Of a DNA stretch of 64,000 nt, positions 24,701-50,700 are shown piece after piece. The position numbers and the translations under genes are program-made. Below the pieces are notes generated by a model that was not told the DNA's origin, searched no databases, and saw only the letters and a program-made list of their open reading frames with translations. Position 1 is the stretch's first letter; each line of letters opens with the position of its first letter. Source of the DNA: Bryoerythrophyllum caledonicum (taxonomy: Eukaryota; Streptophyta; Bryopsida; Pottiales; Pottiaceae); contig OZ020520.1 of the NCBI GenBank assembly GCA_963971425.1, positions 7,048,553 to 7,112,552 on the forward strand, in the 5' to 3' direction.

Positions 24701-24840
24701 GTTGTTAATTTTTTCCAATTCTTGGTAAGATAATTTACTAATACTGATTCATGATAAGTTTTGAAAATGCCTTAAAAATGTGAGTCTTGAGCTCTACACT
24801 TTCAAACTCCAATAAGACCTTAGTAATTTTTTAAGGAATG
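21731..24840. other. intergenic debris, no supported gene
   Basis: Only chance frames of 60-94 codons occur. Near 22,450-22,510 the minus strand reads VKNVVERLAEQAKAHN, which looks like a small gene relic with no continuation. A 31-bp direct doublet containing GGAAAGTTGAGAT occurs at about 23,155-23,212. A GGTTCGAGC word near 21,875 resembles a tRNA/SINE B box, but no matching A box was convincing. Confidence 0.4.
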
Positions 24841-26057
24841 TGAAGTAAAGCTTTTGAAGAAAAATAAAATTACTTTAATAATCAAACATGGTAAGTGAGC
24901 TACCTTGTATGGAGTGCAATGTAAACGGAGAGTAGGTAAGTTATAAATCATTTAAGGAAAGACATCTCACATGGAATACTTCTAATCATTTATTATATCT
25001 AAAATGGAGCATGGATTAGAAGTAAAATTTAAGTGGCATTGGTGTGCGTTGTTACAAAAACTTCATAGCAAGGTCAATGTCTTCATCCACAATACCTATA
25101 ACTTGGGCATTGATAACAACAAAAAATCTTCTCCCTCATAGTGGTAGTTGAGCAATAATTTTCACCCATTTGTTGACAACACCGGTCATAGAGATTTTTC
25201 ACAAAAGATTGATTTCTTTGTTGTAAAAAGCAATAAGTGCGTTGAACAAAGGAAAGGGGACACGTTGAAAGAAGAAATGAACACACAAAAAGGAAGAGAG
25301 GTCTCTTATCGATTTTTGAAAAATGTGAAGAGAAGTTTTCAAAAAAGTTAAGGCTTATATTAATCATTAAATATGGTAGAGAGAAATCTTGTTTGAAGAG
25401 CAGTGTAAATAGGGAGTAGGCAACTTATGAATAATTTTAAAGAATGACATCACACATGAAATACTTGTAATTATTTTATTGTACTTAAGAATAGGGCATG
25501 GATGGTAAGTAAAATTCAAGCAACATGGTGGTGCAGGTGCATGGTAAATATTCCACAACGTGTTTGATGTCCTCAAATACAACATCTATTACTTGGGCGT
25601 TCATAACAATAAGATTGTCTCTCCCTCATAGTGGTGATTGAGGAACAATCTCCACCCGTTTGCTTACAACACGTCATAAAGATTTTCTACACAACATTAT
25701 AGTCTCTATTATAGAACTCAACAACTGCTTCATGGAAAGGAGGGGGGAAGGTAGAAAGAAACAATTCACACACAAAAAGAAGAAAAGTGCCTTATTGGTT
25801 TTTGGAAAAATTAGAAGTAAAGTTTTCAAAATGGTTAATTCTTTTATCAATCATGAATATGATAGGTGAACTAACTTGTTTGGAGTGTATTGTAAATAAA
25901 GAGAAGGCAAGTTATAATCATTTAAGGGAGGACGTCACACATGATATACATTTAATTATATATTCTATCTAAAATGGGGCATGAAAAGGAAGTATAATTT
26001 GAGAGGCATTGGGGTGCGTCATATGCAAAAACCCTACAACAAGCTTAATGTTCTTGG
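24840..26057. repeat. tandem array of about 0.5-kb units, left part
   Basis: Two full units and part of a third can be followed. Marker phrases recur in order: TGGAGTGCAATGTAAA, GACATCACACATGAAATACT, GGGCATGGAT, ACTTGGGCATTGATAACAAC, CTCCCTCATAGTGGT, and a closing AAGTTTTCAAAA. The ACTTGGGC block sits near 25,094 and 25,590, a period of about 496 bases. Copies are diverged by many substitutions and small indels. Reading frames in it are not conserved between units, so it is not coding. The array is interrupted at 26,057 by the Copia element and resumes near 29,728. Confidence 0.7.
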
Positions 26058-29700: not shown

Positions 29701-29727
29701 GATAGAGCAACGAGACAGATAGAGGCC

Positions 29728-30490
29728 ACAACACCTATCACTTAGGCGTTGATAATTACAAGACATCCTCTCTCTCGTATTAGCAATTGAGCAACAATCC
29801 TCACAACACCCGTCATAGGAATTTTCATGCAACATTATTGCCTCTGTTGTAGAACAAAACAAGTGCATTGAACAAAGGAAGTAGGGAGGTGGAATAAATG
29901 AACGTGGGCACACGAAAAAAATGTCTCTTACCATTTTTTGGAAAAAATATGACATGAAGTTTTCAAAAAATTTAAATCCTATATTAGTTAGCAGATATGG
30001 AAGCTAACTTGATTGAAGTGCATTGTAAATGGTGAGCTGACAATTTATCAACCATTCAAGGAAAGGCAGATTCACACATTTGCAAACATGGGGGTAGAGA
30101 ATAGAAATATAATTTCAGCAACAATGGAATGCGTGGAAATTTCTACAACAAGGTCAATGTCCTCGGCCACAATACGTATGACTTGGGCATCGATAACAAC
30201 AAGATAACTTCTCCCTCATAGTGGTGATTGAGCAACAATCCCCATCCATATGCCCACAATATCAGTCATAGGGATTCTCCACACAACATCGTTGCCTCCG
30301 TTGTGGTAGGCATCAATTGTATTGGAGAAAAGAAAGGGGAGGGGTGTAAAGTAAGAATGCGCTTACAATTAAAAAGAAAAGCATTTAATCCAATTTGTTT
30401 GAAAAATGTAATGCATACTTTAAAAGAAATGAAATCAGATATTAGTCATCAAACAGTCAAGGTGGGTGAGCTAACTTGGTTGGAGTGCAC
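29728..30490. repeat. tandem array of about 0.5-kb units, middle part
   Basis: The array resumes after the Copia element. The ACTTGGGC marker block is seen near 29,739 (as CACTTAGGCGTTGATAATTAC) and near 30,180, with the closing AAGTTTTCAAAA block between. The next unit begins with AACTTGGTTGGAGTGCAC and is interrupted at 30,491 by a hAT-type MITE. Confidence 0.65.
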
Positions 30491-32000: not shown

Positions 32001-32034
32001 TCTTCTTTCAGTGAGTAGAAAATCTATAAATAAC

Positions 32035-32300
32035 ATTAGGAGGAACATCAAACATGAAATACTTGCAAACATTTATTCTACCTAAAAGTGGGCATGGATG
32101 GAAAGTATAATCTAAGCGGCATTGAGATGCGCCAATTGTAGAAACCCAAGAGCAAGCTTGATGTCCTCGACTAGTGACACTTTATACTTAGGACTTAAAA
32201 ACAAAATAGTTGTCTCTCCTTCATAGTAGTGATTTGCAACAAATTCCACCCATTCACTCACAATACCGATCATTGTGACCTTCATTATAAAACCTAACAA
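32035..32300. repeat. tandem array, right-hand remnant
   Basis: The array markers return (CATCAAACATGAAATACTTG, GGGCATGGATGG, ATGTCCTCGACT, CTCTCCTTCATAGTAGTGAT, TCCACCCATTCACTCACAAT). This is the remainder of the unit split by the inserts between 30,491 and 32,034. Confidence 0.6.
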
Positions 32301-32339: not shown

Positions 32340-32660
32340 CTACTTCATAGGATACCACCTATATATATATAAATACATATATATATAATTATAGAAGTAT
32401 ATATGTATATAGATATATAGATACATAGGTACACAAATATATAGTTATATAGGTATTCATATATATAGTTATATAGATATACAAATATATGGATATAGAG
32501 ATATAGTTATATAGGTATTCATATATATAGTTATATAGATATACAAATATATGGATATATAGATATAGTTATATAGGTATTCATATATATAGTTATATAG
32601 ATATATAGATATATAGATATACATATTCATATTCATAGATATATAAATATATAGGCAAAT
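32340..32660. repeat. AT-rich minisatellite, 62-bp unit
   Basis: A 62-base unit carrying GGTATTCAT recurs near 32,452, 32,514 and 32,576, exactly 62 bases apart. It is embedded in TATA/GATA-like simple sequence that starts near 32,340 and ends near 32,655. Confidence 0.85.
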
Positions 32661-33198
32661 ACAATGCATTTTTTATATTGGAAGTGCTATAAATTCCAAT
32701 GACATGGGGGATAGGGCATTGCAGACACACATGGATGTGCACCAATAGAGGGACTAGCGATGCTATGTAGCCCACATATAATCTAGCGACATATTATTCC
32801 AATTGGATGTGTCTTCTAGGTATCACCTAGGTTTTGGCTTCAGCAGACAAACAAATGAATATCAAGTGTAGATCTCCGTCGTCCATGACAAGGCAACGAC
32901 ACTCCCCACTTTCCTCAAGTCTGCCAATTGAGGGAAGTGGAGACTTAGGAGACTTGAGAGAAGCAAAGACTTGGGGGACTTGGCTTGTAGATATACATGT
33001 TGAATCATACACGGGCCATAAAACGACGCCATGTCATCGGAACTCTTAATACTTCAAATATTGGAAGTGGACTCTATATATAACAAAAATGATTTCATAT
33101 CTAGTGATCTAGAACCTAAGTAAAACTTCAAAGATACTCTTTCAAACGAAGCCTTTCGGATAAATCACTTTGTCTTTTGAATGTATGCCATATTAAAC

Positions 33199-33228
33199 TA
33201 TTTCTGGACTTTGCAAAGTCCAGAAATA
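33199..33228. repeat. perfect 30-bp palindrome
   Basis: Each half reads TATTTCTGGACTTTG towards the centre and the two arms match with no spacer. It lies about 85 bases outside the first member of the CCGGAGATCTCCGG cluster and may mark an end of that element, or be a cruciform-forming site of its own. Confidence 0.75.
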
Positions 33229-33311
33229 AGGAAGAAGGATTTCAGTGTAGTAGAATTGTGGCACCAAAGAGATTGAGAGGGATACAAATAAAATGAATCT
33301 TAGTCATTCAG

Positions 33312-34827
33312 CCGGATATCTCCGGATGATTTTAGTCAGACGATACGAATCGATTACAGTGATAGAACCTTGCTCAAGGCGAGGTACGATATTATTGACA
33401 GAAATCCTACTGACTCGATTTTCTTCCCAGGGAGTACTTAGGGGTTGCCTTGAGAAAATGAATTTAGAGCAGAAGGCATTGACATTTCATGGATGTCGTT
33501 AAAACAGCCGGAGATATCCGATCGAATGCAGGGAAAGCAGAAAACATTTGGTCAATTTTCATAAACAAAATTGCTTTTTCGGAAGAGAGTCCGTTTACAA
33601 GACCATCACATATTTGATCAGCTCTACGAGACAACAATGACTAGCCTCAGTGAAACTCCTGGATGAAAGACCAATACCTATCCTGGCACTACCTCTGAAG
33701 ACTTCTAAAAATCTTTCCAGTGCGCCGGCGCGTACATGTCCGAATCAACATCAGACCCTGTGTCACAACCAGTTTGAAATGGGCTGCAGCTGCCCTCCGA
33801 AGAAGATTCCTTCTCGTCATCATACCATGGGTCGTCCTCTTCCTCTTCTTCAACCAAACGACCTCCGAAGACTGTCTCATCTTCATCACAGTCAACCTCG
33901 TTCTCGTCCTCCGCTTCATAGTCGCCGCCGTCCTTCTCCTTTGGAACATACTTGCTCTGAGCGTCCTCCTCCAATTCGTCCCGAACACGCGGATTGGAAC
34001 CTATCGCCCTTGTGTACCCGACTTGAAAGCGAAGCACTCGTCCCTTCTCCGAACCCTGAGCGTCGCTAACCATCCTTCGTGAAACTCTCCGGTCTACCGA
34101 ATCAGACTCTTCCCTCTCCCTCTTCCTACTTGCGAAAGCCATCTCCTCTCTCTCAACCCTGGCTATGGACTAACAAAACTAACAAGTTGAAAGACAAAAC
34201 ATATGAATTGGTGCAGACCTAAACCCTTTCTTATACTATCCTCCCTACCAACCCATTAATTACAGATCTCGAGCGTAGATAAAGGATGAGTCATTGATAT
34301 AAGTCGCCATAACACCGAGACTGATAGAAATAAAGGCAGCTTCCACAGACACGAATGACCAACATGGTAGGCCACGCGTCAAGCGTGCTGTTGTAACGTG
34401 ATGTGCGAAGTACAATCTCTGCCACCAACCATTAGCATCACATCAATGATAAGAAGGTCCTCGTACAACTGATATGTAGTGTGTAATTGACCGCGTATTA
34501 TCATTTTAGTTGTGGCATGTCAAAAATCTAAGAAGGAACCAGCCATGGGAATAACCAAAAGGTCTCTGATACATTGTTGAAACATCCATCGTAAAATGAA
34601 ATGCAGTATCGAAGTCACATAAAATCTCCGGATATGATTCAATACTATTCAGAACACCTAGGTAAGCTCAAAATTGGGAAGCTCAAAATTGGAACCCCAT
34701 TGTTGAGAATGGGGGATGTGAATCTCCTATCCGGAGATCGCCGGCTAGATCTTACCGACTAAAACATGGCAATATACAAACATCCTTAGGTCCACAAAAT
34801 TTAACTTCCATAGCCGGAGATCTCCGA
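33312..34827. repeat. palindrome cluster, downstream side
   Basis: Members: 33,312-33,325 (CCGGATATCTCCGG), 33,508-33,521 (CCGGAGATATCCGA), a half site near 34,624-34,633, 34,731-34,744 (CCGGAGATCGCCGG) and 34,814-34,827 (CCGGAGATCTCCGA). They surround the small basic-acidic gene. Most copies differ from the perfect palindrome by one or two bases, mainly at the inner or outer positions. Confidence 0.8.
33705..34142 (-). CDS. small basic-then-acidic protein, 145 aa
   Basis: A single open frame starting MAFASRKREREESDSVDRR. It has a basic, nuclear-localisation-like N-terminus, a middle with Arg-rich segments, and an acidic C-terminal half with a run of Glu/Asp near residues 97-105 and ending YAPAHWKDF. 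The charge pattern is directional and not expected from chance. It is on the same strand as, and about 1 kb downstream of, the large GHTHEDID protein and lies between palindromes of the same cluster, so it may be the second gene of one element. No domain is recognised. An antisense frame over the same bases is a shadow of its codon bias. I favour the first ATG because the frame is closed just upstream. Confidence 0.55.
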   Translation of the reverse strand: MAFASRKREREESDSVDRRVSRRMVSDAQGSEKGRVLRFQVGYTRAIGSNPRVRDELEEDAQSKYVPKEKDGGDYEAEDENEVDCDEDETVFGGRLVEEEEEDDPWYDDEKESSSEGSCSPFQTGCDTGSDVDSDMYAPAHWKDF

Positions 34828-35021
34828 TAAGCTTTCGGAGAGACGTGAGGGTCCAAAAATATACCGCTGGCGGAATCCAATCAACAGTAACTCTGTCACT
34901 CTTCAATGTACCCAAATTACATTGAATGGAAGAGCACACTTTCGGTCCTCTTCACGATGACTGGCGAGAGCTGAAAGGAGGGATGACGAACTCGGGCCCA
35001 GATAAATAAAAGCGTCCACAA

Positions 35022-35035
35022 CCGGAGATCTCCGG
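35022..35035. repeat. perfect CCGGAGATCTCCGG palindrome
   Basis: A perfect 14-base copy about 90 bases beyond the stop codon of the large gene, in its presumed 3' untranslated region. Confidence 0.85.
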
Positions 35036-35127
35036 TGCTCTACGGTGTGGACGTAGCAGCTCTACGAGATTTTTCACAAAGAGAGTTTCACAGAACTGAA
35101 TTATACGTAGAAGGACTGATCAACGTA

Positions 35128-38100
35128 TCAGAGATCAGCGACATTCGCTTTCTCTAAGTTCACAAGCGCTGCTTCTTTCATTTTCCGTGGAATGGACCTC
35201 GTAAGTTGGTTAACTTTGCTTGACCAGGTCGCAAACAACACGGAACTCACATGACACCAAACAAGCTTCTCTTGGTCCGCAACCCAAGTGGCTTCCCAAC
35301 AGTCCTGGTACTTCCTCTTCAGATTCTTCTGCTTGTTATCAGGCTCCCAATACTTAACGAGGAATTTCCCATAGTTGACATTACCATCTTCCATGACGAC
35401 CTCCAAAACTGCTCTTCCCTGCCAGATAGGATAGATGTCAGGATCACTAGGTCTTACTAAAACCCAGGAGCCATGACGAATGTCACGCCAAGGATTAAAA
35501 GTGGACTTGGGGGCTTCATTAGAGGGTCCGCAGTAAGGCTCAAGAACCTCATCCTCGGGAGTGACATCCTCTGGTTGTGGAAGCAATCCTAGAAGATTTT
35601 CACCTCCCTCATGAAGGCCTCTCCAATCATGGGCAGGCCAGAATCCCTCTTCGAGTTCGGAAGGCGTCTGGGGAAGTGGCTTGTCTAGCTCGTCGATGAC
35701 ATCCTTCCAGTACTACAGGTATGGGCGGATGGAGTCCGCGTACCCTGCGCACTTAGTCATTCCGGACGCCCAGTACTCAACGTACTTCCAAAGCCCCGTC
35801 TTTATAAAGTTTTTGTTCTCTGTTGCTTTCCTGGCCTTGTCTCTGGCAACATCTTGGTTTCCAACAGGGCTCTGCTCCTCATTACCCCATATAGGCTTGA
35901 AAGGAACAAGCTTGGGAGATCCTGTTGGAAGCATGGGACGTCCGAAGTTTTATCGGCTCTCTGTTCATGGGTAACCACTCTGCGTCAACGGCAGATTTCT
36001 TGAACTTCATGACCGGAACACCGTCATTGTCAACGAAGAACTTGAAAAGATGCATATCACTAAGTCCCACCAGACGTGCCGCCCCGCTGCATAGATAGCC
36101 ATCGACGTACGATTTGAAGTCGGCGACCTCTTGGATAACTTTCGGCATGAAGGCTAGTTTCTGTGACTTCATGAATGCCTTAATCAAATCCGCTAGAATA
36201 TATGTACTGCTTTTCTTCAGTTCTTTCCATAGATGACTAAAGTAAGCATCAATATCTTCATGTGTATGTCCAACAACCAAGAAGCCAACCTGTATCTCCT
36301 TGAAAACACCTTGAGCAGTTAGCAGTGATAAGAATGCCATCAAGTATTGGTTCTTGTTGTCCTTCGCTGAGTCGTCAAGCTATAGAAACAATTTCGGTAG
36401 CAAAGGTTTCGGTCCCTTAAAAGCACTCGGCTCCACGGGCTCTAAAGCGTCGACGCACCTGCTCTTTCCCCTCATGAGCGCCGCGAACATCGAGTTTGGA
36501 GGAGGGTGCTCGAAGAGCACGCGCGTCTCATGTAAAGGTGCTCCCTCAAGGCGCCGAAAAAGTTTTGCCAGAGAGGAGATGGTGGCGTTCGAATCTTCAG
36601 GGCATAATGCAGGAGCATAGTGAGCATACGCTCCGTCAACATGACCGTGAGCCACCATTCCAGTGACATTCATGGGAAGCTGTTCGAGATCAGATGTCGC
36701 CTTAGTAGTCCTCCACATGCAAGGAAGGGCAGTCTTCGCCGTGTCCATCTTGTTGTGAATGACACAAAGAAAGGTCAACGGCTTCGCCTTTGGCTCCTCT
36801 CTCCATGTTGCGTAAAGCTTCCGGCAAGACTGTTGGTGATTCAAGTGAGCCTGCCTGTTGCTATAGAATAGCTCGTAAGCGGGCATTCCCTTTGGAGTTG
36901 TCAGTAAGAACTGATTGAATTCATCCCAAGCATTGCATTTTGCGAAGGTGCTTCCAGATGGCTTACTAGCAACATTCCCGAAGAATTCCTTTCTAACCCT
37001 ACTAACTGTGGACTGACTTACAGGCGGAAGACCGTAGGAGTCGTTTGTCTACAAGATGAAATAATTACGAAGTGATAAGAGTATTTCAAAAAGACAATCC
37101 AGTAGACAGTTCGAAGAACAGAGTAAAGCAAATAAAGGTCATTTCATGTCAACGATGACACAGCCGGAGATCTCCGGTTCGATAACTAGGACTTTGGTCG
37201 ACTGAAGAAAGAGAGTTCTAATCCATATCATTATGTAGGGACAAATAACGTACAACATTGACGTTGGCTCGAATTTGCTTCCAGTTGTTTCTGGCAGGAA
37301 GATACTTGAGAGTGTCAATCCGACCATTCCCGACACTTCGCATTTGGTGAGGCATCTGATCCGCGTTGTCATTAATAATCGACGTCATTGACCCCATCAC
37401 TTGTATAGTGGCAAGCCGTGGGCGCTTGATGCCCTTGTTACCGTGAGTTGCATTGATGATTCCTCTACTGAAATGTGCGATGCACGAGTGAAACGTGGAC
37501 TTCCGAATTCCATGGATCGTGTACCATGCAACGGAGCAGACCTCCGTTCCTAATAGAGTGACGTACTTTCTCTTCCGGTCCCCGTCAATTGAGTGAAACT
37601 GTCCGCCTACCGAGATTGCATACTCCATTCCGTCTTCAAAGGATTTGTCATAGAATTTCTGTCTAACAGAAAGAGTCTGGGATTGTTGAAAATATTGGCA
37701 ACATCGTCTGGGACAACACCTTTCCGAGCTGACTTTGCGAATTTCGTCATCCATAGTCCTCTTGGTGTATAAGGATTCTTTCCTGTTGAGGTCTTGCTGT
37801 CGGAAAATAAAGCGGTAAGGCTCCTTTGCACGACCCCCCAAATAAGCACCAGAATCAGGTTGTAAAGGCAAGGATGCAAAATGATCTAATGTGTTTCTTA
37901 GAGACCTCCCGGAAGGAAAACAACATTCAAGAATGGGCCACGATTCATGACTCATAATTCTCTCCGTGTCCCCCACAAAAACGTCGAGGACAGTTACACC
38001 AATGTTATCTTCTCCCAAGCATCCACTACGGAAATGATCCGCTGGTAACGAGGCCATGATTCTTCCAGAACAGAGTACTAACATATTCCCGTCCAATCGC

Positions 38101-38567
38101 TGCACTTCAAGTCCAACCCATCGCTCTCGTGGTACGAAAGGGGACTCGTCGGACCGGAGATCTCCGGTTGGAATCTTCACATGCGCCCTTCTCCAGAGGA
38201 CCGTCCGCCGAAGTGTTTGAACAAGTGAACCATATCTGCGTTGCAAGGGAATGACTGGAAATTCTTCCGCTAAGGACGTTATGGCCGTTGGTCTAAGTAA
38301 AACGAACTCACTGGAACCGACTGGTATGTCAACTCCAAGCCATTGACCAACTGGGTGAACCTCGACAATTGACGCTTCTTCAATTTCGCCTGAGCCTGGC
38401 CTCAAGAGGTTCACGGACAATCCTGACCACAAAACCTCCGACCTTCCAGTAGACTCTTCGGATGGATCATCTTCTTCCATAAAATCTGCTCGACCGAAAT
38501 TGGGGCACTGAGCTGCGACCATGGCAAGATCGTCCGAGTCACTCTCCCACCAATCAGAGTCAGACAT
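35128..38567 (-). CDS. transposase-like protein with DNKN and GHTHEDID motifs, interrupted
   Basis: Minus strand, modelled as exon 38567-37254, intron, exon 37048-35128, about 1,080 codons with about two in-frame interruptions. Order of visible parts: acidic N-terminus (MSDSDWWESDSDD); a Cys cluster SERCCPRRCCQ; a conserved block SIINDNADQMPHQMRSVGNG; a helix-turn-helix-like stretch PPVSQSTVSRVRKEFFG; IHNKMDTAKTALP; TGMVAHGHVDGAYAHY; LDDSAKDNKNQYLMAF; GFLVVGHTHEDIDAYFS; and a C-terminal chromo/BAH-like strand region GSWVLVRPSDPD..WQGRAV. Asp-containing motifs spaced like this fit an RNase H-like DDE nuclease. I recall the GHTHEDID type as close to the DUF7869 family, but that link is from memory. 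A second, older copy lies at 45.3-49.35 kb on the other strand. Confidence 0.65.
37164..37177. repeat. perfect CCGGAGATCTCCGG palindrome in intron
   Basis: A perfect copy inside the single modelled intron of the large gene (37,253-37,049), between the two coding exons. Confidence 0.85.
38154..38167. repeat. perfect CCGGAGATCTCCGG palindrome within coding exon
   Basis: A perfect copy lying inside the first exon, read through as part of the protein in the stretch HVKIPTGDLRSDESPF. Its presence in coding sequence shows that the word is tolerated or selected even where it dictates residues. Confidence 0.85.
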
Positions 38568-38681
38568 TCTCCCGGCCTCCGTCGGTGGATGTTCGGCTGG
38601 TGGCCGATGGCCTTAGTACGTGAATAAGTGGACGTGGATTAGAACTGAATAACCAAGGTCAAAATCGTAGGGTGTGTCTAG

Positions 38682-38978
38682 CCGAAGATCTCCGGATGAC
38701 TCGATAATGATCAACAACGTCCATTACTTGTGTAAGTGAGGATGAGAAGGGTGAAGCTAGAAGTTCCATTCGTAACTAACCGGAGATCTCCGGTTCATCC
38801 GAACCACGCTGCCGTGATATCTTTCAATGGTCATCTCGACCTTGAATAGCCGGAGATCTCCGGGAACCCTAGGCTTGTAAAATGGGACAGCGACATGTTT
38901 TTGGGATAGTTGCCGTGGCCTGCAAGTGAGCATGGCAGAATCCAGACTGTCACGGCTTGAACAGCCGGAGATCTTCGG
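38682..38978. repeat. palindrome cluster, upstream side
   Basis: Four members lie in about 300 bases just upstream of the large gene's start: 38,682-38,695 (one mismatch), 38,780-38,793 (perfect), 38,850-38,863 (perfect) and 38,965-38,978 (one mismatch). Starts are 98, 70 and 115 bases apart. This is the densest part of the cluster and coincides with the expected promoter, so autoregulation or transposase binding are both possible. Confidence 0.85.
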
Positions 38979-39100
38979 TTCGCATTTATGTCGTTATCGA
39001 AACATCGGCCGTACAAAATATTCGAGGGTGTGGCAGTAAGATTCAGTCGCCAATCCCTGAGAACTGTTCGGATTCACACCCCGATCAGTCACGTCATCTT

Positions 39101-41590
39101 ACTTCTCGAGTCGAAATATATTAGGCGCTCGGAATCTATTTGTTAATTAGGAGACGATTTAGTTACTGAATCACTACACGACAGCTCCCGATGGACTGTA
39201 AGGGCAGAATGAAACACAATCTACATCAATCCTATCAAATTGAATGCGGATACGAAATTATACGAGGAAACAAACCTAACACTCTTGGAACACCTACTTT
39301 CTAATTGTTTCCCTGCAGAATTCTAGCACGATGTCGCGCACGCAAACACTCTCACTAACTGGCTCAGCTCCCACAGTATCCCAAACCTCTAGAGCAAAAA
39401 AGGATGAGAGCTGAGTTGAAGGATACTCTTATCAACCTCCTCATCACCTCCTGGTGGGAAAATTCAGGCACTCAAATTTGAAATGAATCTTGGACATGCA
39501 TACTCTATCATAGTAACTGCAGTACACCATCATGATAGTGCGCATTCTTCGACGTGCCCACGACCGAGGCCACATTCCACTCATGATGAATGAAAGGCTC
39601 GTACTCATGGGATGACCGTATTGTCAGGAAACCATCTAGTTCTCAGAGTGCTGCAAATTAAAAAACGGAAGATGAAGTATGCCCCATGGTGTATCTTTGT
39701 GATTACTAGGGCCGTATCACGTCATGGACTAAGTCACAGTATAATGTAATCGTATGATACTTCTTGTACTCACCATTATAAATGAAATTATACCCTATCC
39801 ATGGAAAACAGTCGGCCCACTGCTGCCGACTACACTAAAAGTTTCATTTAGTGTAATGGCACGAATAGTGTACTTACCTTTGTACTTTAATTGCAAACAA
39901 GTTGACAAATAGTGTACTAATTGCAAACAAGTGTACTTTCTAAATAGTTAACTCGATCAAAATTTACTTTATCAATGATAACTTTATCGGAATACACTTC
40001 ATGGAATTTTCGGAGACGGTGATAGTGTATATACCTCTCGGATGTCGCCATTTTTTTGGCGAGTAAGATGTCCTCTTCGGCGGATGGCTTCTATTGTAGC
40101 GCCTTTGTACTCCTCCGGCGTTCGTTGGCTGGTGATGATTGGCGCTTCAGCCAATGGCTCCAAACTCCAACAACCAAACTCCAATTGTGCTTGATAAAAC
40201 AAGAACGCAAAATCAGGAAGATCACGATTACAAATGGCGAGAAATAGGAGGACGGTAGGGTTTTATACTTGGATCCGGCTGATCGCCCCGATCGTTCGAT
40301 CTTCATTCAAAGGTAGACGGACGACCACGACTTAATTAGATATTCTCAAGTTTGATCTAGGTATCAATTCTCATTTGACATGCCAACTCGAAGGGTTGAT
40401 TTGGAATAAACATTGAACCTAGGGTCGAGGGGCCATGATACTAGGGTATGAAGTGACATCTTAAACTTTAATGTCGCTTAGGCCATCATTGGGTCTAAGG
40501 TCTAAATCCCTAGTTCTGCAATGTCACTTTGACTGATTTGATTTCAAGGAAATTTCATCTTGACACTTCTTTTAATTTGAAATCTCTTAAAAGTGGCGCA
40601 ATCTTGACTGCCCATGAGCGGGAGTCAATGATCAATTTTGGAGGGCAATTTCAAATTTCAAGTTCGCATGCATTGGTTGGATGAAGATGAGGATATGACC
40701 TCAATCCTTGAAATTCCTCCGTCATTTCTGAACTCTCATGCCTCCTCCTCATTACTTCTGCCCTCTCATGTAGGAATTTTGTAGGAGTCTTTTTCGCACA
40801 AGTCCATTATTTCAGGTCCTGCAAGAGTCCGTTATATGTTCAGATCCTGCACGAGTCTAGCACTTTTCCTGGTTTTGCGTCAGCCATTTTTTCATGCAAA
40901 TTCTTGTACAATTTCTTTTCATTTCATTGCGTTATTGATAATCTTATGATCAGTTAATGACTTTTTCATGTTTTTGGCAGATAATAAACTGTGACTTCTG
41001 TTTAGATTCAAGTACAATTGACTATGTCCTACCACTCTTGTTCTTTGTTCCATAGTCCGTCGGCCGATGATAAAGTCCACTCAGCGGATGCCTGATACAT
41101 CTTTCACTTGGTAGACATTATCCAAAGCATTCAAATGTTGGCGGGCCGCCCACGGCTTTTTGCAAGAGTCCTATTGCCGATCAATCCGCTAGCTAATTAA
41201 ACACAGTGAAGGGGTTGTTGGACGGGTTTACCGACCCTAAGCTTTTTAGAGCCATCCTTGTCGGCAACCTGCCAACGAAATCATTGTAGTTGCCATTCCA
41301 TTATCCGTCAATCCAAGTGATTTTATTCCGTTGATGTCAACATGGACTGTGAACCCATTCTATTCTTCATATAGAACAAGAAGTCCTGATGATGGAAGCT
41401 TCGTACATGTGTTGTTGTTGCTCTCACATATTCCGCCTCTACTTTGCTGGTCGAGCGACTGTTGAGCAAGTCATTCTTAGGGATCCATGGATTATTTGTG
41501 TGAAGGTGATTGAAGTGTACGATGCTGTGGGACTCCGTTCCCACATGGTGTCGGAAGTTAACCTTAAATTCCGGCCAAAACAAAAAAATT
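39101..41590. other. intergenic stretch, no supported gene
   Basis: No gene is supported. A hairpin TACACTAAA-N7-TTTAGTGTA lies near 39,832-39,857. Frames near 40,000-40,300 overlap on both strands and are chance. Words such as GCAAGAGTC recur around 40,830-41,170. The frame at 41,389-41,592 is short and unrecognised. Confidence 0.4.
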
Positions 41591-41639
41591 AGTTAAGTAC
41601 TTACGATAGTTTGTGCTAGAATACAACCTGTAGTCTTCA

Positions 41640-44600
41640 TGTAAGAATACAGACGGATGGATCCGGCGGCAAACCCTAAATAAGCCTAAAGCTGCAAAAT
41701 GCCGGGCCGGAGTAGTAACAGAATTCCGGTCAGTCTGTTATCTGGAACCATCAGCCGGAGCTGTCGCCATCAACTGTCATCATGAGCCGTACTAACGGCC
41801 AAACTACAAAAGGCTGGGGGTTCGGGGGGAAACCCTTTCTTTTCACTTCTTCTTTGCGTGTTGATGTTCCGCTCCAACACTTTTTTTTTCTCTCTCTCTT
41901 TCTCCCTCACTCTTACGGTTTTCTAACCGCTTGCCGTTAGGGTTTGGAGCTTAGACGGTTAGAATGGAGGTGCGTCCGTTAGGGAGAGTTTTTGTGAGGA
42001 CAGTGCGTACAGGGACAACGTTGAGAGACTCTGAGGTTATAGGCAGAACTCATGAAGACGGTCCCGATGGCGAAGAAGAAGAGAATAAATAGAGACGGGC
42101 GCAGTCGGAGGGACGAAGAGCCGGCCGTTACGCTCCCTCCTTTGACTTGCATCATACCGAACATCCCAGCAGACCCGGACGAGTACAACACGCTGAAGAA
42201 GAGCCTAAAGATGATGGGGTGCGAGGGTTTGCTCAAAGTTGCCTGGGGCATCCGGGAGGCGGTCTAAGTCCGGGAGCTTATAGGCGCTCCGGATGAGAAG
42301 TACAAGGGGTTAATGAGAGCCCATCCGGAACTCTGGGGAGTTCCATAATGGTCTCACGCGTACGACTTCCGGGCCGGCCGCACCAACGTGGTGGAACGGC
42401 GGGACGAATTCCTAGCGGACGAATTCGAGGGACCAACGGACCCGAAGGATGGCTACAACCTCCAGGACCTTTGGCACCAGGATGCCCAGCTTGTGCTAGG
42501 GTTTTTAAATCCTATCTTCCATCCAGAAAAGCCGAGACGGGTGGTGGCGAAGTGGGCCTGCACTTTCCTCGGAGCACTCCGGGGGAAGATCATCGTAGAC
42601 TGGGGGACGCTAATGACCGAGATGATCAACCGTCTCGTGGCCAATCTCCAGAAGGTGAAGAAATTGGCAACACCTCTAGCCTCATATGTGGTGCACCTCT
42701 ACTGTCACCACCAGCAGCTAACTCCGGCGGAGGTCAGGCAGTACGACGAACTTCTCAACTTCTAGAAATACAGAGGTGACGAGTCAGAGGAGGAAGGATC
42801 CGGAGGGAAGGAGCCTGTGTCGGAAGCAACAACCATAGGCACTCCGGAAGGCCGGAGGGCTCCGAAGAGACATCGGAGGAAGGAGCCAGTGCCAGAGGGT
42901 CCGGAGACCCTCAGCTCATCCGCGTTGTCCGGAGAAGACGAGTCCGGACCCTGAGCGGGAACCAGCCGGAAGAAGAGGAAGGTTGACCGGGAGGACTCCA
43001 AGGGTCAGCTCAAGCTGATGGACGAGCTCACACGCAATATCGGCTGGAGAGTTGGGTTCCTTAAGGAGACCAACTACATCATCACCACTAGCGTAGAGCA
43101 AATCTTCCGGAGTCTAGACGTCGACAAGCTAGAAGACGCCATCACCAGGGTGGAGGAACTCCGGAGCAGAGAGACCGACACGAAGGCGCTGCATCTCCAA
43201 ATTTCCTCCATGTTCAAGGCCAACACGGAGATGGAGAAGAAGATAAAGCACTACTTTCAGGAAGCAGCTCTGGCGGTGATGGGCCGGAAATAGGCGGAGG
43301 AAAAGGCCAATGCTTGCGCAACTGCTCTGACGGAGGTCTGGAAGGCTCTGGAGGTGCCGATTGACGTGGTCAACCGGAGCCAACTCTTCACCGAACTGGT
43401 GGAGAAGGATAAGAAGGTGACCAGGACTAACATCCTTCGGTTTCTCCTGGACCAAGCGGAGAAGATGGGTCGGACCTGGGAGCAGATGAAGCTGCTCGTC
43501 GACAACATCACCTCGATGCTTCCGCAGGCCTCAACAGCACCAGCACCGGAAGGCGGCACGATCCCGGCACGAACTATGGCCTCTCCGAAACCATCGGCGA
43601 AGACAACTCCAGCTCCAGGGACCTCGGCGAATTCAGAGTCTCTCGACACTCCGTCACCTCGGACGCCGACGGAGGGTATCTTACCTCCCAACCTGAGTAC
43701 GAGTGAGATCCTGAAGAAGCTTCCGGATCTGCTGTCGCCACCTAACAAGCGCTTGCCAGACCCTCCGGCGGAAGGCGACCTCCCGACACCACCAAAGTCT
43801 GTGTCCCGAAGATTGGCGCCCGGACCAAGGAGTCCCTCTGGAAGCTATAGAAACTTGGTCCGGGAGACCAGGTCAGCTTCCGAGACGGAACCACCAACGC
43901 CTCCTATTCCGAAAGGTTCACCGGAACAGCCGCCTCCACCGCCGGCCTCTAGAACTCCGGTGGCAGGAATTTCTCCAACGGCCGGACCATCTACACGGAA
44001 GACCAACCTTTCCCCCGCGACATCGAAGAAGGCGAAGGATAAACAGCGGACTCCGATGGAGATCTCCCCCTCCCGTAGGAGTGGGAGAAACTAGGAACCA
44101 GGTGCTCCGACTTAGATTAGTTAGGTTTAGTATTTTTTGGGTTTAGATTCCAGATCAGCAGCGATTAACGATGGGGCCTCAAGTGCACCCGGCTGCTAAC
44201 GGAATCGACTGCCAGTTTTGTAGTTAGAGTAGAAATTCCGGAGCAGGAATTGTTCCGAGATTTTAGGATCTGAGATCCAATCTGGGACCTTTCCGGATTT
44301 CTTGGATCTTTTAGATAAGATCTAGCGGACTTCACGTAGGATAGTTAGGATGAAGGCTAAGTTTAGCAGGGACTTAGTTAGTACTTAGTAGTGAGGTTTT
44401 CGAAAAAAACCTTTCATCTTGTCTTTCGCACTTGGTTAATATACAACACTCCTTTGTATTAGACTTGCTCTCTTGTACTTTTGGTATGAGGTGTATACTT
44501 TGTGAGTAGCTGATCCATTCCTGTGGGAGAGGTTGTGTCAGTATCTTTCCGGAGTGTGGTGATGGTTAGTTCGTTAAAGAGAGAAACCGGTCGAGGTCCG

Positions 44601-45390
44601 TGTCGGGAGATCGCATGGGAGAGCTGGAGGGCTATTGCAGAGGTGTGCCTGGTAGACTCCAGGGTCCGGAAGTAGCCAGGAGGGGAGGGGACGAACTGCA
44701 GAGGTGTTCCTGGTAGTCTCTAGGAAACGGAGAGATCCGTTATAACCTGGATTCTGGTCAAAGCCGGAGTTTTCCTCCAAGATAGGAAAATGCGTGATGC
44801 GTAGGTCTAGACGGAGTACCTTGACGAGGTAGTAACATCATTTCCGAAAGATAACAATTGCATTCACCGGAATGTTGTTGTAGTCCAGACTTATCTCTGT
44901 GTGACCGCGTCCGGCGGCGGAAGGCCATCCGGATGTCGTGAGAGTCTAAGTCTAGCAACAACAATCAATTCATCAGCTAGCAGAGTAGGGAGAGTCATGT
45001 TCGGTCACTATAAGTTCCGGATAGCGGGTGCCTAGCCACTTAAAGTCACATGGCAGTGGGAAATCCAGCCACTTACACAAAACAGGATCAGTGGGCTCCG
45101 GCCACTCGCTTAAAAACTCCAGGAGCCTCTCTGAGGAAGAACAAAGACAAATCAAACTAGCCTCCGGACTTCCGGAAATTACTTTCCGGAAGCCATTGTA
45201 CAAAATCCGGACTCCGGAAGGATCTGGATCTCCCATACATAAGTAATGAATATAGCTAACCTTAGAACGATTGTTATGGTAGTAAAGTAAATCTAGAGTA
45301 TTTGGAAAAGAACCTTAGATCTCTGTGGGAACGAAACCGGAGCGGTTACTTTGGAAGCATTTAGTGACGATTGGGTGCATTCCGGAGGAA
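41640..45390 (+). mobile_element. GC-richer element remnant with one long protein region, broken
   Basis: From about 42,050 to 44,094 one strand encodes a large protein, broken by a handful of interruptions. Its parts are a basic start (MAKKKRINRDGRSRRDEEPA); a globular region with WACTFLGALRGKIIVDWGTL and LASYVVHLYCHHQQLTPAEV, reminiscent of plant-transposon or gag-like proteins; a Lys/Arg-rich linker; a coiled-coil region (about 43,018-43,500); and a long Pro/Ser/Thr-rich tail ending RRSGRN. About 1.2 kb of untranslated sequence follows, including a near-duplicate of GCAGAGGTGTGCCTGGTAG at about 44,636 and 44,697. The hexamer TCCGGA is greatly enriched across both coding and non-coding parts. 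LTRs were looked for and not found. Membership of an LTR-related, nonautonomous group is possible but unproven. Confidence 0.5.
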
Positions 45391-46330
45391 TACTGTTTCT
45401 ACAAACTGCAACAGATGCACTAGAGATGCCCATTTCATTTCCAGTAGGTGGCGTATTCATGTTGCGCGGTTACAAAGGCCGATTGATCAGCTGGGAGGCG
45501 GCTGATCTTAGGCCTTACGCTAACACCGATGATTTATTGAAGGAGCTTGCAAAAAACCCTTCATTGGCAGTTCAAGATATTTAGCTTGTCCAAGAGTTTT
45601 TGGACCTTCGCGATGGCACGGAGGTGGCCCTACTTGATATCAGTGGCGATCAGAGACATTGGGCAGGAGTTGGAGTCACCCACAAATGCTCACCGAAGGG
45701 TACGTGGGAGGGGTTTCCCATTCCTAACAGCTTCTTTTTGGTTGTCAGAGTTTAGTCAGTTAATGCCAAGTATGTTGGTCATCCCGCACATTGCGAGATT
45801 CCCAGCCTTGGCGCTCTCGGCAATTATGTAGGTTACCTGGTCCTATGGAGTGGCTACCGGGTTTGTCCCTTTCCACTTGATGTTGGCTTTGGTAATGCAC
45901 TCGATGATGACTGTTCTTTGAGTGACAATGAAATGGAAGCATCCGACGACGACGACCGTCATAATAGAATGTATGAGAACAATCATAATCATTGGGCCTT
46001 TAGTTATTTGGAGGAATCCGAATTGGAGGCTGAAATGGAGCATTGGCAGTGATGAGGACATCTCATCGGTGAGCCTTCAACGACAGAATAGTCATTCTTT
46101 TGATGATCCATCCGCTACCCACGTTGGTTTACATGATACAAATTTGTTTCCAGATTGACTAGACTGGAGGAACAAATACTACCATCTCCTAGATGATCCA
46201 AGTATACTTGCTACACGAGGCATGCAATTCAGAGATTTTGGGGGGCGTTGATGTTTGGGTTGTCTTTGTCTTAGAGAACGAGGATCTTCAGATGACAACA
46301 ATGCGCTGAAAAAAAACTCATACGCGCCTT
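45330..46330 (+). pseudogene. probable N-terminal part of the second GHTHEDID gene copy
   Basis: Plus-strand coding-like sequence includes VGGVFMLRGYKGRLISWEAA, LVQEFLDLRDGTEVALLDIS, a WAGVGVTH stretch and an acidic DDDCSLSDNEMEASDDDDR region. It precedes recognisable parts of the second copy on the same strand, so I assign it to that gene, but similarity to the N-terminal third of the 38.5-kb copy is weak. Several stops and frame changes are present. Confidence 0.4.
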
Positions 46331-46469
46331 GAAGGTGATCCAGTTCTTTCTAAGTGCCTTACATTCTGCTCAGCACACAGTCCTGCTGCATGCGAGGATG
46401 ACGGGCTAGAGGGAGTGCCTAAGGAGCATATCAAAGGTGTTCGTCAAAAGCTTGTGCCGAATGAGGATG

Positions 46470-49345
46470 TGTCAATCTCATAGTTCCGGTGCCTTCAAGA
46501 CCCAAATGACTGTCGGTTTGTTAGCTCGAAAAGGTGTTGTAAGAAACGGTGCTGCCAATTGTTTTATTGGAAGGACAACGGCAGGATCCAAAAGAAGTTC
46601 TACGCGTCAAACTTTGAACATTGACGTGAGACGGCCTATGCTGTTGCGGACCAACTTTATCCAATTCCCAGATTCAGCAAGTCCTACATTACCCTCTTTA
46701 GTGTCGACGTCTGTGAAGTCACGTGATATCACATTCACGGTGTGTCCAAGTCTGCATGTTACAATTACAAATCTGATTCCAAATTCGATCGTGTGAATGG
46801 TAGCCACGGTAACGCACACATTATGCGGCCCAAGCCTCACATCGTTCAGGCACGTAGGACGATATCTAGCATTATCAACGATAGTGCGGACCAGATGCCA
46901 AATGAGTTTTGTGTCTTAGGAAATAAGAGGGTTGCAACGTTGAAGGTGCTTCTTGCGGCAATGGATTAAATCACTTACGTGACATGGCCAACTTGTAAAT
47001 ATTGTCTTTACTTCCTGCTCTCTATATGTATGGCATAGTTTGTCTTCTCCATTCCTTTCATCGAGCTCCGTCCACACTGGTGGCCCACCGACGGTGGTCA
47101 TTTGTTGTCTCATGGGCATACATTTGACACCATCGTCCTTCAGTATTACTGAATGATTGTAGAAAATGTTGCATCCAGGTCATAGTCAAATGCAATGCCA
47201 AGCCGATTTCGCAATCCGCAATGAGTAACATGAAGTAGAGGTTCTTTAAGAATATAGAAGTTAAGTTTTGGGCAACAACTTCTCTCGGTGCACGGAGTGC
47301 GACTTCCTCGTCCAGTTTATTGCCAAATATCCTCGCGGGTCAGTCGAATGGCAAGGACTAACAGATGACAGGAACAAGCACCTATGCTACAAAAGAGCAC
47401 GCATAAAATTTTACTCCGGCTAATCTGCACAGTCCATTCAGAATCCTTGTGAGTTTTTTTGCATAATTCATGACAAGATGGATACCTCAAAGACGGCCAT
47501 TCCCAGAATGCACAGGATTACCAAGGCCATCGTAGGGCTCGGTCGGATTCCAATTTCATGTACCGGCATGCTTACTCATGGACACGGCGACGGAGCCTAC
47601 GCTCATTACTTGACATTGTTATGGCCGGAGGACTCCAATTTCACCATCTCCTCTCTTTGCCGTGTTCTAAGAGCTCTAGAGAGGTGCCCCGTGCGAGAGT
47701 CCAAGGAACTTTTCACCTATCCACCTCAAAATCCTTTTTTTAATGCTCTACTTCATGGGAAGTCTAGATGTAGTTCCTCCATTCCCGAATCTAAAGGGGA
47801 TCTGTTCCCACATGCTCCCCCGGTAGACTGCAAGTCTCGCTTCCTCGAAAGTTATCTCTTCAGCTTGATAATTCCGCCAAGGATAACAAGAATCGCTTTC
47901 TCATGGCGTTTGGCTTGCTTCTTACAGCTAGGAAGATTTTCAAGGAGGTTACTATGGGATTCTTGATTGTCGGCCACAGTTATGAGGATATTAACGCACA
48001 CTTTAGTTACCTTTCAAAACTCATCAAACAAAAGAATACTTACTGTTTGGCTGACCTCATGAAAGCCTTCAAGGACTTCCAGAAGATTGTCGCGTTCATT
48101 CCTGAACTTGTCAAGGAGGTTGCGGATTGTAAGAGTTACATTGATGGCTACCATTACGACGTCAATAAGAAGATTATGAGACTTGGAGAGATGCACCTAT
48201 TCAAGTTTTTCGTGGAGGAAGGAGATGATGCTCGATGGCCGGTCATGAGATACAAAAAGTGTGCGGCTGATTTATCCTAGCTACCTCCAGGTAAGCTATT
48301 GAAAGCCACCTATCCTATATGCATCTCTCTTTGACTTTCTCGCCTTCGTTGTTGACCTTCTCCATTGGAGGCCGATGGACCTAGACGTTTTTGCCACCGA
48401 TGTGCTTAAAGTTGATATTCTCATTCTGTTTATGCAACTGACTCTCCTTGTGCTCATTCAGGTAAGCTTGCCAAGATGTGGACCGCGGATGAATACGGAA
48501 ATCCACGCCTTCATGTTGGAGATCCAAAGCCAATCCCTTTAAGCCTCTCTAGGGAGACGTTCGTGTTAACCAGAACAAAAGAAACCTCAAGAGAAGGAGG
48601 TTGCTCACGCCATTGAATTCAACGAGAAGCAATCCTTCATCAAGAACGGGATTGCCAAATATATTGAGTTCTGGAAGACCGGCATGTCCCCAGACAAGAG
48701 GGTGTAGAGGATATGGCCCCGTACATTTTGTACTCGGAGCGTATCCACCAACTTATTTCTAATCCCCTGCCAACAAATCGGGAGTCTCTCCAAGAAGGAT
48801 TTTGGCCTACTTTAGACTAATTTTGCGATCATGCTCGCAACTTTGCGTCAGCCGATGACGTCATTGGCATTCTGGACATTACCCCCGAGGATGACCCCGA
48901 CACATATCCTTTCTGTGGCCTTGAATTGAGCTGTTCGAAGAGGTCCTTTAATCCATTTTGATACGTTTTACTTGGTGATTTTGTCTTCTACCGTCCAAGC
49001 AATGGTCATTACCTTTCCATGTGGATGAGCCAAACTCTTGACTATGTTAATCTAACTCCAAGAGACTGCTATGGAAATTTCAAAGTCGAATGGTAGATGC
49101 CCATGTCAGGGAAGAAGGAATCGAATAAGGTTGTCGTTAAGGAGTGTTGGTCCAAGAGATGGCAAAGGGAACCTTGTCTTCCAGAGGTACAGAATTGCAA
49201 AATTATTTTATACTTGCATCGCTTTCCGTTCCACACTAAGAAAGACCCTCCCAGTTCCCACCGTATTCCGCCAGAGGCAACGAGTGTTGCAATAGAAACT
49301 CTGGAGGGTGGTGGCATCTCAATCAATTGTGAAGATGAAGACTAA
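46470..49345 (+). pseudogene. second, older copy of the DNKN/GHTHEDID gene
   Basis: Plus-strand pieces align in order with the 35.1-38.6 kb gene: the Cys cluster CCKKRCCQ (near 46,530); SIINDSADQMPNEFCVLGNK (near 46,870); IHDKMDTSKTAIP (near 47,470); TGMLTHGHGDGAYAHY; LQLDNSAKDNKNRFLMAFGL (near 47,855); GFLIVGHSYEDINAHFS (near 47,960); NGIAKYIEFWKTGMS (near 48,650); and GDFVFYRPSNGHYLSMW (near 48,970), ending at 49,345. Identity to the first copy is moderate at best. The catalytic-type GHTHEDID has become GHSYEDIN. Many stops and frame shifts separate the pieces, so it is a pseudogene. No CCGGAGATCTCCGG palindromes accompany it, so the two copies belong to different sub-lineages or the flanks have decayed. 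Confidence 0.72.
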
Positions 49346-50700
49346 TTCTTTATACAGTCGGCTGCCCGCCGACGGATTGCTGCAGGACCCTAATTATACA
49401 ACTCAACTACTGCCAAATCGCACTATAGATACTTGGTTATTTGATGGCGAGGTCCTATAATTTCTGAATAGAAGAAAACGTTCCATTCGGCTCCCCGTTG
49501 AGTGCGACAATACTTTAGTCTCAACATCTGATCTTTGAAACTTCTCACGTTAGCCATCCCTCAAGGATTTTGTTTTGGCTGTTTATCATACACGCACACA
49601 TTGATTTTTCTCAATGTGTTGCCAGCTGGTGGCTTCATAAGTTCATTGTTTTGTAACTAGCTTATTTCTAATCATATCCAGCAAATGTTGGCTTACAAAC
49701 CATCCTTCCTTGTCTAATGCATGTCTCTACTATTCACATGATTTGACTGCTTTATCCTATGGAATTTTCAACTCATGAATTTTAACAATCCTTTGCAAAT
49801 TTTGAACATCCTTAATAACTTCACCCATACTTGCATAATTTGAGATAATCTAGTAGGTGTATTTGGTCGTTGCAAGTATTTACTTTGGTCCACAATTGAT
49901 CGTTTTGTCCAGATTTTGTTAAATATCCATTCTTCCCGGTAGTACCCAAAGTTCCCAAAAAGTTGACTGATGGTTCCCCCACCCCTTCCCAAGCCAAGTC
50001 ACCATGTGCATGTGGTCCCAATTACAAACATAAGACCCTAAGATTTGGAATGAAAGATCCAATACTTTAAAGGAAAACCCTACTCAAAACAACTAATAAA
50101 ACTAAGGAAGCAGGATCTAATCTGAGGTCGCCGAGCGGGGTACTTTCAGGAAAACTCTAACGAATCGTTCCCCTTGTGTGCACTGTCGAGTATACCCCTT
50201 CGTCGATATGATCCGTGGAGTCTACTGTAACCGCTGCGGTTACACAATTGGGAAGCTCGAGGCGATGGTGCCAATGGTCACGAGTTGGTTATCACACAGG
50301 TGGTTATGCTATTTGATCATGTAAGTCGGTTGCTCTCCACTTGAGCTGCTGCATGTGGACGGTTCGTCTACGTCTCCACCACTCAACCAGCAAGTTCTCT
50401 TCAACAGTTTTCTCAATGCAACAATGTTATGCGCGAACCGACTTACATCCGTAGTTGCAACTAGAGCAGGGAAATATCAGGAACTGGACACGGGTTCTGA
50501 GGTTGCTGGAATTGGCCTGAACCATCAGTTTTCGACTTACTGCAGTTCCGAAGAGTAGGACAGAAACCAGGACGTTCTGAGGTTCAGCGGAGCTGATTGT
50601 TTGGGGAGAGAGTTGGATTCGTTTTGTGATAGAGCCTGGCAACTTATAAATGCTCAGGTGGAGCAGCGATGCGTACACCAGATGACATTCCTGTCGTCAC
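49346..50700. other. intergenic stretch, no supported gene
   Basis: Only frames of 60-83 codons occur, and strands overlap. Between 50,110 and 50,350 the DNA is GC-richer and looks like a degraded element end. I see no RNA gene. Confidence 0.4.

Follow-up and report, generated by a model that had tools for sequence, protein, structure and literature searches.

What is the unit at about 33.2–39.1 kb of a 64,000-base stretch of contig OZ020520.1 (the window), in which two genes on one strand are accompanied by a repeated 14-bp palindrome? An earlier note on this DNA had described it as a candidate two-gene DNA transposon with subterminal binding sites. In our judgement, the chances are about even that the unit is a dead DNA-transposon-like element built around a gene of the DUF7869 family, with family-specific binding sites that serve either transposition or an anti-silencing role like that of VANC. 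From the sequence, we infer its mobility, its transposase activity and the identity of the protein binding the sites. New here would be a DNA-transposon-like unit with family-specific binding sites around a protein that was not found in print as a transposase in the literature searched.

A palindrome confined to one unit

The earlier note had counted eleven full copies of the palindrome plus a half site within 5.7 kb, had seen none elsewhere in the window and had judged such a 14-mer not to be expected by chance. All of this was borne out. A scan with up to two mismatches found 11 copies of CCGGAGATCTCCGG, all within 33312–38978 (five exact, five with one mismatch and one with two), together with the half site at 34624, and none elsewhere in the 64-kb window. 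The expectation from shuffled sequence was 0.03 copies per shuffle, and none of 100 shuffles reached 11. The half-site word CCGGAGAT occurred 17 times in the window, each time inside the unit. Pure AT runs excepted, the 14-bp palindrome was the sole palindromic 12-mer or 14-mer to occur at least twice in the window. A literature search did not find the 14-mer. The sites were:

33312–33325, plus strand: palindrome copy with one mismatch, left-most
33508–33521, plus strand: palindrome copy with two mismatches
34624–34631, minus strand: half site CCGGAGAT
34731–34744, minus strand: palindrome copy with one mismatch, oriented against most copies as judged by its extension
34814–34827, plus strand: palindrome copy with one mismatch
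35022–35035, plus strand: exact palindrome copy
37164–37177, plus strand: exact palindrome copy in the presumed intron of gene 1
38154–38167, minus strand: exact palindrome copy inside the first open frame of gene 1, reversed relative to most copies
38682–38695, plus strand: palindrome copy with one mismatch, upstream of gene 1
38780–38793, plus strand: exact palindrome copy, upstream of gene 1
38850–38863, plus strand: exact palindrome copy, upstream of gene 1
38965–38978, plus strand: palindrome copy with one mismatch, right-most

The palindrome extended asymmetrically on one side. After the copies at 34731 and 38154 had been turned, all 11 carried Y at position −3, A at −2 and R at −1 (YAR), and the flank held 7.9 bits of information, whereas 40 random sets handled in the same way averaged 4.2 and did not exceed 5.05. 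The extended motif was thus the 17-bp YARCCGGAGATCTCCGG, with the core CCGGA-GATC-TCCGG, in which two inverted TCCGG half sites stand 4 bp apart. Judged by this flank, 9 of the 11 copies pointed the same way. Ten of the 11 lay outside the presumed coding parts, which leave only 34.6% of the span (P = 1.8e-4, a value that depends on the presumed gene model). Since the copies share a one-sided extension, mostly keep one orientation and lie almost entirely in presumed noncoding DNA, they have the look of sites bound by a protein. Dimeric DNA-binding proteins may choose sites of this make-up, with a palindromic core, a constant spacer and an extension on one side. The simplest binder for a site that one unit keeps eleven times, and that its surroundings lack, would be a protein of that unit.

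Two other explanations of the repetition bear directly on the form of the copies. It is very unlikely that the palindromes act in RNA. By eye, CCGGA-GAUC-UCCGG could fold into a 5-bp stem with a 4-nt loop, and the nine copies of one orientation relative to transcription would suit such a role, but an orientation bias of 9 in 11 is weak and a palindrome is what dimer binding to DNA would lead one to expect. The six imperfect copies, also compared by eye, carried two changes at loop positions and five at stem positions; of the stem changes, four break a pair, one leaves a G–U pair and none is compensated. We give the least credence to the insertion of short mobile palindromes, or a microsatellite-like expansion, into an unrelated pseudogene. 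Short palindromic repeats have spread in some organelle genomes, which counts for this idea, whereas the copies here are not arrayed in tandem, have only about 17 bp in common and do not go beyond the unit.

The gene pair and a second DUF7869 gene

The sites lay outside, between and inside a large gene (gene 1; 38567–37218, then 37048–35128) and a 145-aa open reading frame (ORF; gene 2; 34142–33705), both on the minus strand, as the earlier note had said of its flanked and interleaved gene pair. Its account of the genes stood as far as the pair is concerned; gene 1 proved not to be intact, and a second DUF7869 gene at about 45.4–49.35 kb had been missed. The gene features were:

37218–38567, minus strand: first open frame of gene 1, 449 aa; over 152 aa, its Cys-rich final third shares 40% identity with the second copy
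37049–37217, minus strand: presumed intron of gene 1 with one exact palindrome inside; flanked by open frames, splice sites putative
35882–37048, minus strand: DUF7869 (PF25273) part of gene 1 with an in-frame TAG at 36382–36380 and the motifs HNKMD, LDDSAKDNKN and GHTHEDID; E = 6.1e-42 with the TAG read through
35128–35949, minus strand: C-terminal part of gene 1 with an in-frame TAG at 35715–35713; 25–39% identical to the second copy
33705–34142, minus strand: gene 2, 145-aa ORF with an acidic second part, called from codon use and from ORF length versus shuffles
45428–49345, plus strand: second DUF7869 gene, more decayed, of a related family and without the 14-bp palindrome; limits approximate, E = 1.6e-30 for 47795–48277

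Gene 1 was a member of DUF7869 by Pfam's own cut-off (143.8 bits versus a cut-off of 26, with the TAG read as a residue; 87.4 bits and E = 1.2e-24 in one uninterrupted frame, without reading through stops). Pfam names this a domain of unknown function. No other Pfam domain passed the cut-off in the parts of gene 1 or in gene 2. Neither a Mutator nor a CACTA transposase domain was found in these scans, nor did any other described transposase superfamily domain pass, in agreement with the earlier note, which had not recognized a described superfamily. The acceptor AG of the presumed intron was placed before 37048, and the donor probably lies slightly upstream of 37217. Besides its two in-frame TAG codons, gene 1 changed frame near 35950. 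Either a frameshift or a very short intron may account for this, the latter being considered because the second copy seems to have an intron at that place. The name DUF7869 was not found in the literature search, and among the papers listed by a further search that included the accession PF25273, none held the name or the accession and the titles were unrelated; the available excerpts of a paper on Ectocarpus transposons (PMC12477816) name no such family. A viral origin was considered and rejected, as DUF7869 patterns gave nothing in viral contigs, a 165-aa part had no match in a phage collection at E 0.001 and PHROGs gave none.

Gene 2 had a codon score of 0.274 bits per codon, compared with at most 0.106 in the five other frames, and its codon use resembled that of gene 1. 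An ORF of its length arose in 4 of 300 shuffles. The earlier note had called the small product basic-acidic, and this was correct: residues 1–65 are slightly basic (net +3) and the protein is strongly acidic from residue 66 (net −25). It had no Pfam match at E 1, no PHROGs match at E 0.01 and no relative elsewhere in the window at E 0.05.

The second DUF7869 gene had its parts in the same order as gene 1, on the opposite strand and within 10 kb of it. Identity between the two was 25–55% depending on the part (40% over 152 aa in the Cys-rich region, 39–55% in the DUF7869 region and 25–39% in the C-terminal part), while the first approximately 270 residues of gene 1 had no match in the second copy at E 0.05. 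Over 131 aligned codons, pN was 0.26 and pS 0.90 (saturated), which means that the lineages parted long ago and that both kept a working protein long before decay. The two genes diverged under purifying selection. Long purifying selection followed by decay is the course that autonomous transposon families would take. Because of its conserved acidic motifs and the two diverged, decayed copies in one window, the DUF7869 protein of gene 1 is a probable transposase.

The idea that the palindrome co-clusters with this gene family applied, within the window, to the gene 1 unit and not to the second gene, so the palindrome marks at most one family and not the whole group. Two other palindromic words, GAAACCGGAGCGGTTAC (45333–45349) and GTAACCGCTGCGGTTAC (50227–50243), which match at 15 of 17 positions, stand around the second gene. 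As ends of a second unit, this pair was marginal and was rejected (2 of 30 shuffles as good in a narrow search, 5 of 20 in a wide one).

Genes 1 and 2 could instead belong to the host, with DUF7869 a host gene family and the palindrome a host transcription factor site upstream of each gene. The positions of some sites would suit this: gene 1 has four of them at 115–411 bp ahead of its start, and gene 2 has three, as well as the half site, on its upstream side. Transposon ends beyond chance were also not found. Against it, other sites lie within the presumed intron, inside coding sequence and beyond the 3' side of gene 2, the 14-mer is absent from the rest of the 64 kb, other genes included, and gene 1 is broken, with a second, more broken gene close by on the other strand. 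We regard a host gene pair as quite unlikely.

Known systems, proposed mechanism and relatives

Two plant systems offer precedents. In the VANDAL/VANC system of Arabidopsis, which is Mutator-like, the sections available describe short family-specific motifs in the noncoding regions of a multi-gene element, with related families differing in motif (PMC5735166, PMC10398659). The unit resembles this system in its short noncoding motif. It differs in form, as the VANC motifs described there are of 8–9 bp in tandem repeats whereas a 14-bp palindrome with a 3-bp extension is dispersed here, and in gene content, with DUF7869 and not a Mutator transposase as the sole Pfam domain above the cut-off. For CACTA elements (En/Spm), the portion available describes family-specific motifs in subterminal regions, with TNPA acting on subterminal repeats (PMC2613891). 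The likeness would lie in the combination of a transposase gene, a DNA-binding product and repeated motifs of about 12–20 bp that differ between families (same portion); here, however, no CACTA transposase domain was present, terminal repeats did not exceed chance and the middle of the unit also carries sites.

The earlier note had called the sites subterminal. They do cluster near both outer limits (four at 38682–38978 and two at 33312–33521), but the middle (34624–38167) contains 5 of the 11 full copies as well as the half site, between or inside genes. This distribution bears on the possibility that the sites are subterminal and internal binding sites for a transposase or a TNPA-type protein, used for transposition only and without an anti-silencing role. 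The outer clusters favour it, as does the example of CACTA elements, whose motifs differ between families of one species in the portion available (PMC2613891). The sites in the middle, the lack of a terminal repeat above chance and the lack of a CACTA transposase domain do not, and we think a transposition-only role unlikely. VANC is the better precedent for sites scattered over noncoding parts, whereas the outer clusters fit VANC and TNPA alike. An anti-silencing role, or both roles together, is favoured by the spread of sites, which stand close to the two outer limits, ahead of each gene and within the presumed intron.

For the dead transposon-like element, we propose the following mechanism. 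Gene 1 would encode the DUF7869 protein, a predicted transposase, and gene 2 an accessory protein with an acidic second part. The eleven times repeated YARCCGGAGATCTCCGG would be bound by one of these proteins, probably as a dimer on the two inverted TCCGG half sites, and by this mark the element would know its own DNA. The mark could be used to assemble the ends for transposition, as TNPA does on the subterminal repeats of En/Spm, or to strip silencing from the noncoding regions, as VANC does on VANDAL elements. As the site holds CCGG twice, its methylation could be read directly.

A wider claim, which we consider doubtful, is that DUF7869 proteins serve as the transposases in a eukaryotic superfamily, widespread and as yet undescribed, in which each family has its own palindromic self-mark to recognise, mobilise and un-silence only its own copies. 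The mark would consist of two inverted half sites 4 bp apart, CCGGA-GATC-TCCGG in the present unit and GTGTTCG-NNNN-CGAACRC on a second contig, L008. Were this so, a function could be assigned to an unexplained protein domain, and the sequence-specific self-recognition of transposons, known in detail from Arabidopsis VANDAL/VANC, would gain an independent non-Mutator case with a compact site.

Relatives were sought with a back-translated GHTHEDID pattern in 84,980 bacterial and archaeal genomes. Ten contigs matched, and DUF7869 genes were recognized by translation on two of them (L008 and L010) and confirmed by the Pfam model; the remaining eight were dropped, judged by eye only. In a control, the Pfam model matched none of 14 genomes. 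We take L008 and L010 to be eukaryotic contaminants of metagenome bins because of their split frames and a retrotransposon gag-like frame on L008 (read from the frames). Both keep an aspartate at the other two motif places (SDGM, QIDGG), which is compatible with a D-D-E triad. Their GHTHEDID is no independent evidence, as the contigs were found through it. On L008, GTGTTCG-NNNN-CGAACRC occurred four times downstream of the DUF7869 gene, all at the contig's 3' end, and the rest of the contig had none. Palindromes with 4-bp spacing and 7-base arms were enriched on this contig (4 versus 0.4, maximum 2 in 100 shuffles). That the L008 palindrome has the same plan as CCGGA-GATC-TCCGG is only a hint. 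The four L008 sites lie at 4929–5162, 3' of the DUF7869 gene at the contig end, in an 89-bp tandem repeat that holds two different palindromes of shared arms.

Several observations weigh against the element and its wider family. The L008 pattern was picked after looking, and its four sites come from two words, each present in both of the identical 89-bp tandem units at the end of the contig, a place where assembly artefacts occur. Palindromes with 4-bp spacing and 5-base arms were not enriched on L008 (8 versus a shuffle mean of 5.9), 2 of its 4 palindromes with 7-base arms lie elsewhere in the contig (1422 and 1464), and L010, covered only on its 5' side, had none with 7-base arms. In the window, the second DUF7869 gene carries no copy of the 14-mer, which leaves a single unit with the palindrome, and its last motif is altered to GHSYEDIN. 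One exact palindrome copy (38154) sits in coding sequence. The structure model was poor (pLDDT 36.2), and the RNase H-like fold that the earlier note had given the large protein could not be read from it. Terminal repeats were sought for the unit and none exceeded chance: the best terminal inverted repeat had 9 matches and was equalled by 18 of 30 shuffles in a narrow search and by 30 of 30 in a wide one. The best candidate ends, 33049 and 39424, have a 7-bp direct repeat (ACTCTTA) and an inverted match of 8 of 9 (score 13 versus 10 in one control region), but 9 of 200 shuffles equalled them, and the left end would fall within a flanking repeat arm whose match continues to either side of that point (16 of 20 and 19 of 29 bases). 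This pair is a weak candidate for the true element borders.

A search of the Protein Data Bank (PDB) with this model gave no fold match at E ≤0.001, and by sequence none at E ≤10; the fold search is meaningless because the model is too poor. The transposon layout described in the earlier note stood in part: the palindrome keeps to a single unit that has a DUF7869 gene and a small gene, and the gene family, though not the borders of the unit, occurs twice in 64 kb in diverged, decayed form, while no ends, terminal inverted repeats, target duplications, shared borders or mobility were shown.

Sequence next to the unit and window context

Near the left limit of the unit, a 30-bp perfect palindrome, TATTTCTGGACTTTGCAAAGTCCAGAAATA (33199–33228), lies 84 bp outside the left-most palindrome site, and no second exact copy of its arm was found outside it. 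It was rejected as an element end, as 33229–42755 held no copy of its arm with up to three mismatches and thus no right-side partner. Just left of the unit is an AT-rich tandem array with a 62-bp period (32360–32654), followed by an inverted pair (32659–32707 and 33029–33077; 71% complementary), the whole stretch spanning 32360–33077.

Other genes in the window were Nup93 (Nic96, E = 4.9e-32) and histidinol dehydrogenase (5.1e-20), both by Pfam, and a copia-type reverse transcriptase frame was read from the translation at 28.2–29.4 kb. Based on these three, the window is eukaryotic nuclear DNA, probably from a chromosome of a land plant. No tRNA was found in it, and nothing matched Rfam at the gathering score.

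The region 41500–45499 was rich in TCCGG/CCGGA, with 71 of the 125 occurrences in the window. Within 41600–45300, 67 were counted, compared with 10.9 (maximum 23) under a first-order model and 35.2 (maximum 61) under a second-order model. Its noncoding part, 44100–45300, held 26 (2.3 expected at first order; 12.0 at second order, maximum 27) and did not go beyond the second-order control. A broken 683-codon frame (42043–44094) in this region had no Pfam match. The region is perhaps another element with its own, shorter CCGG-containing mark.

At positions 14001–19000, GC skew was strong (0.27 to 0.47), AT skew had the opposite sign and no ORF reached 150 aa. A dispersed repeat family was present at 24818–26051, 29724–30453 and 32010–32266, its members 67–74% alike and on one strand.

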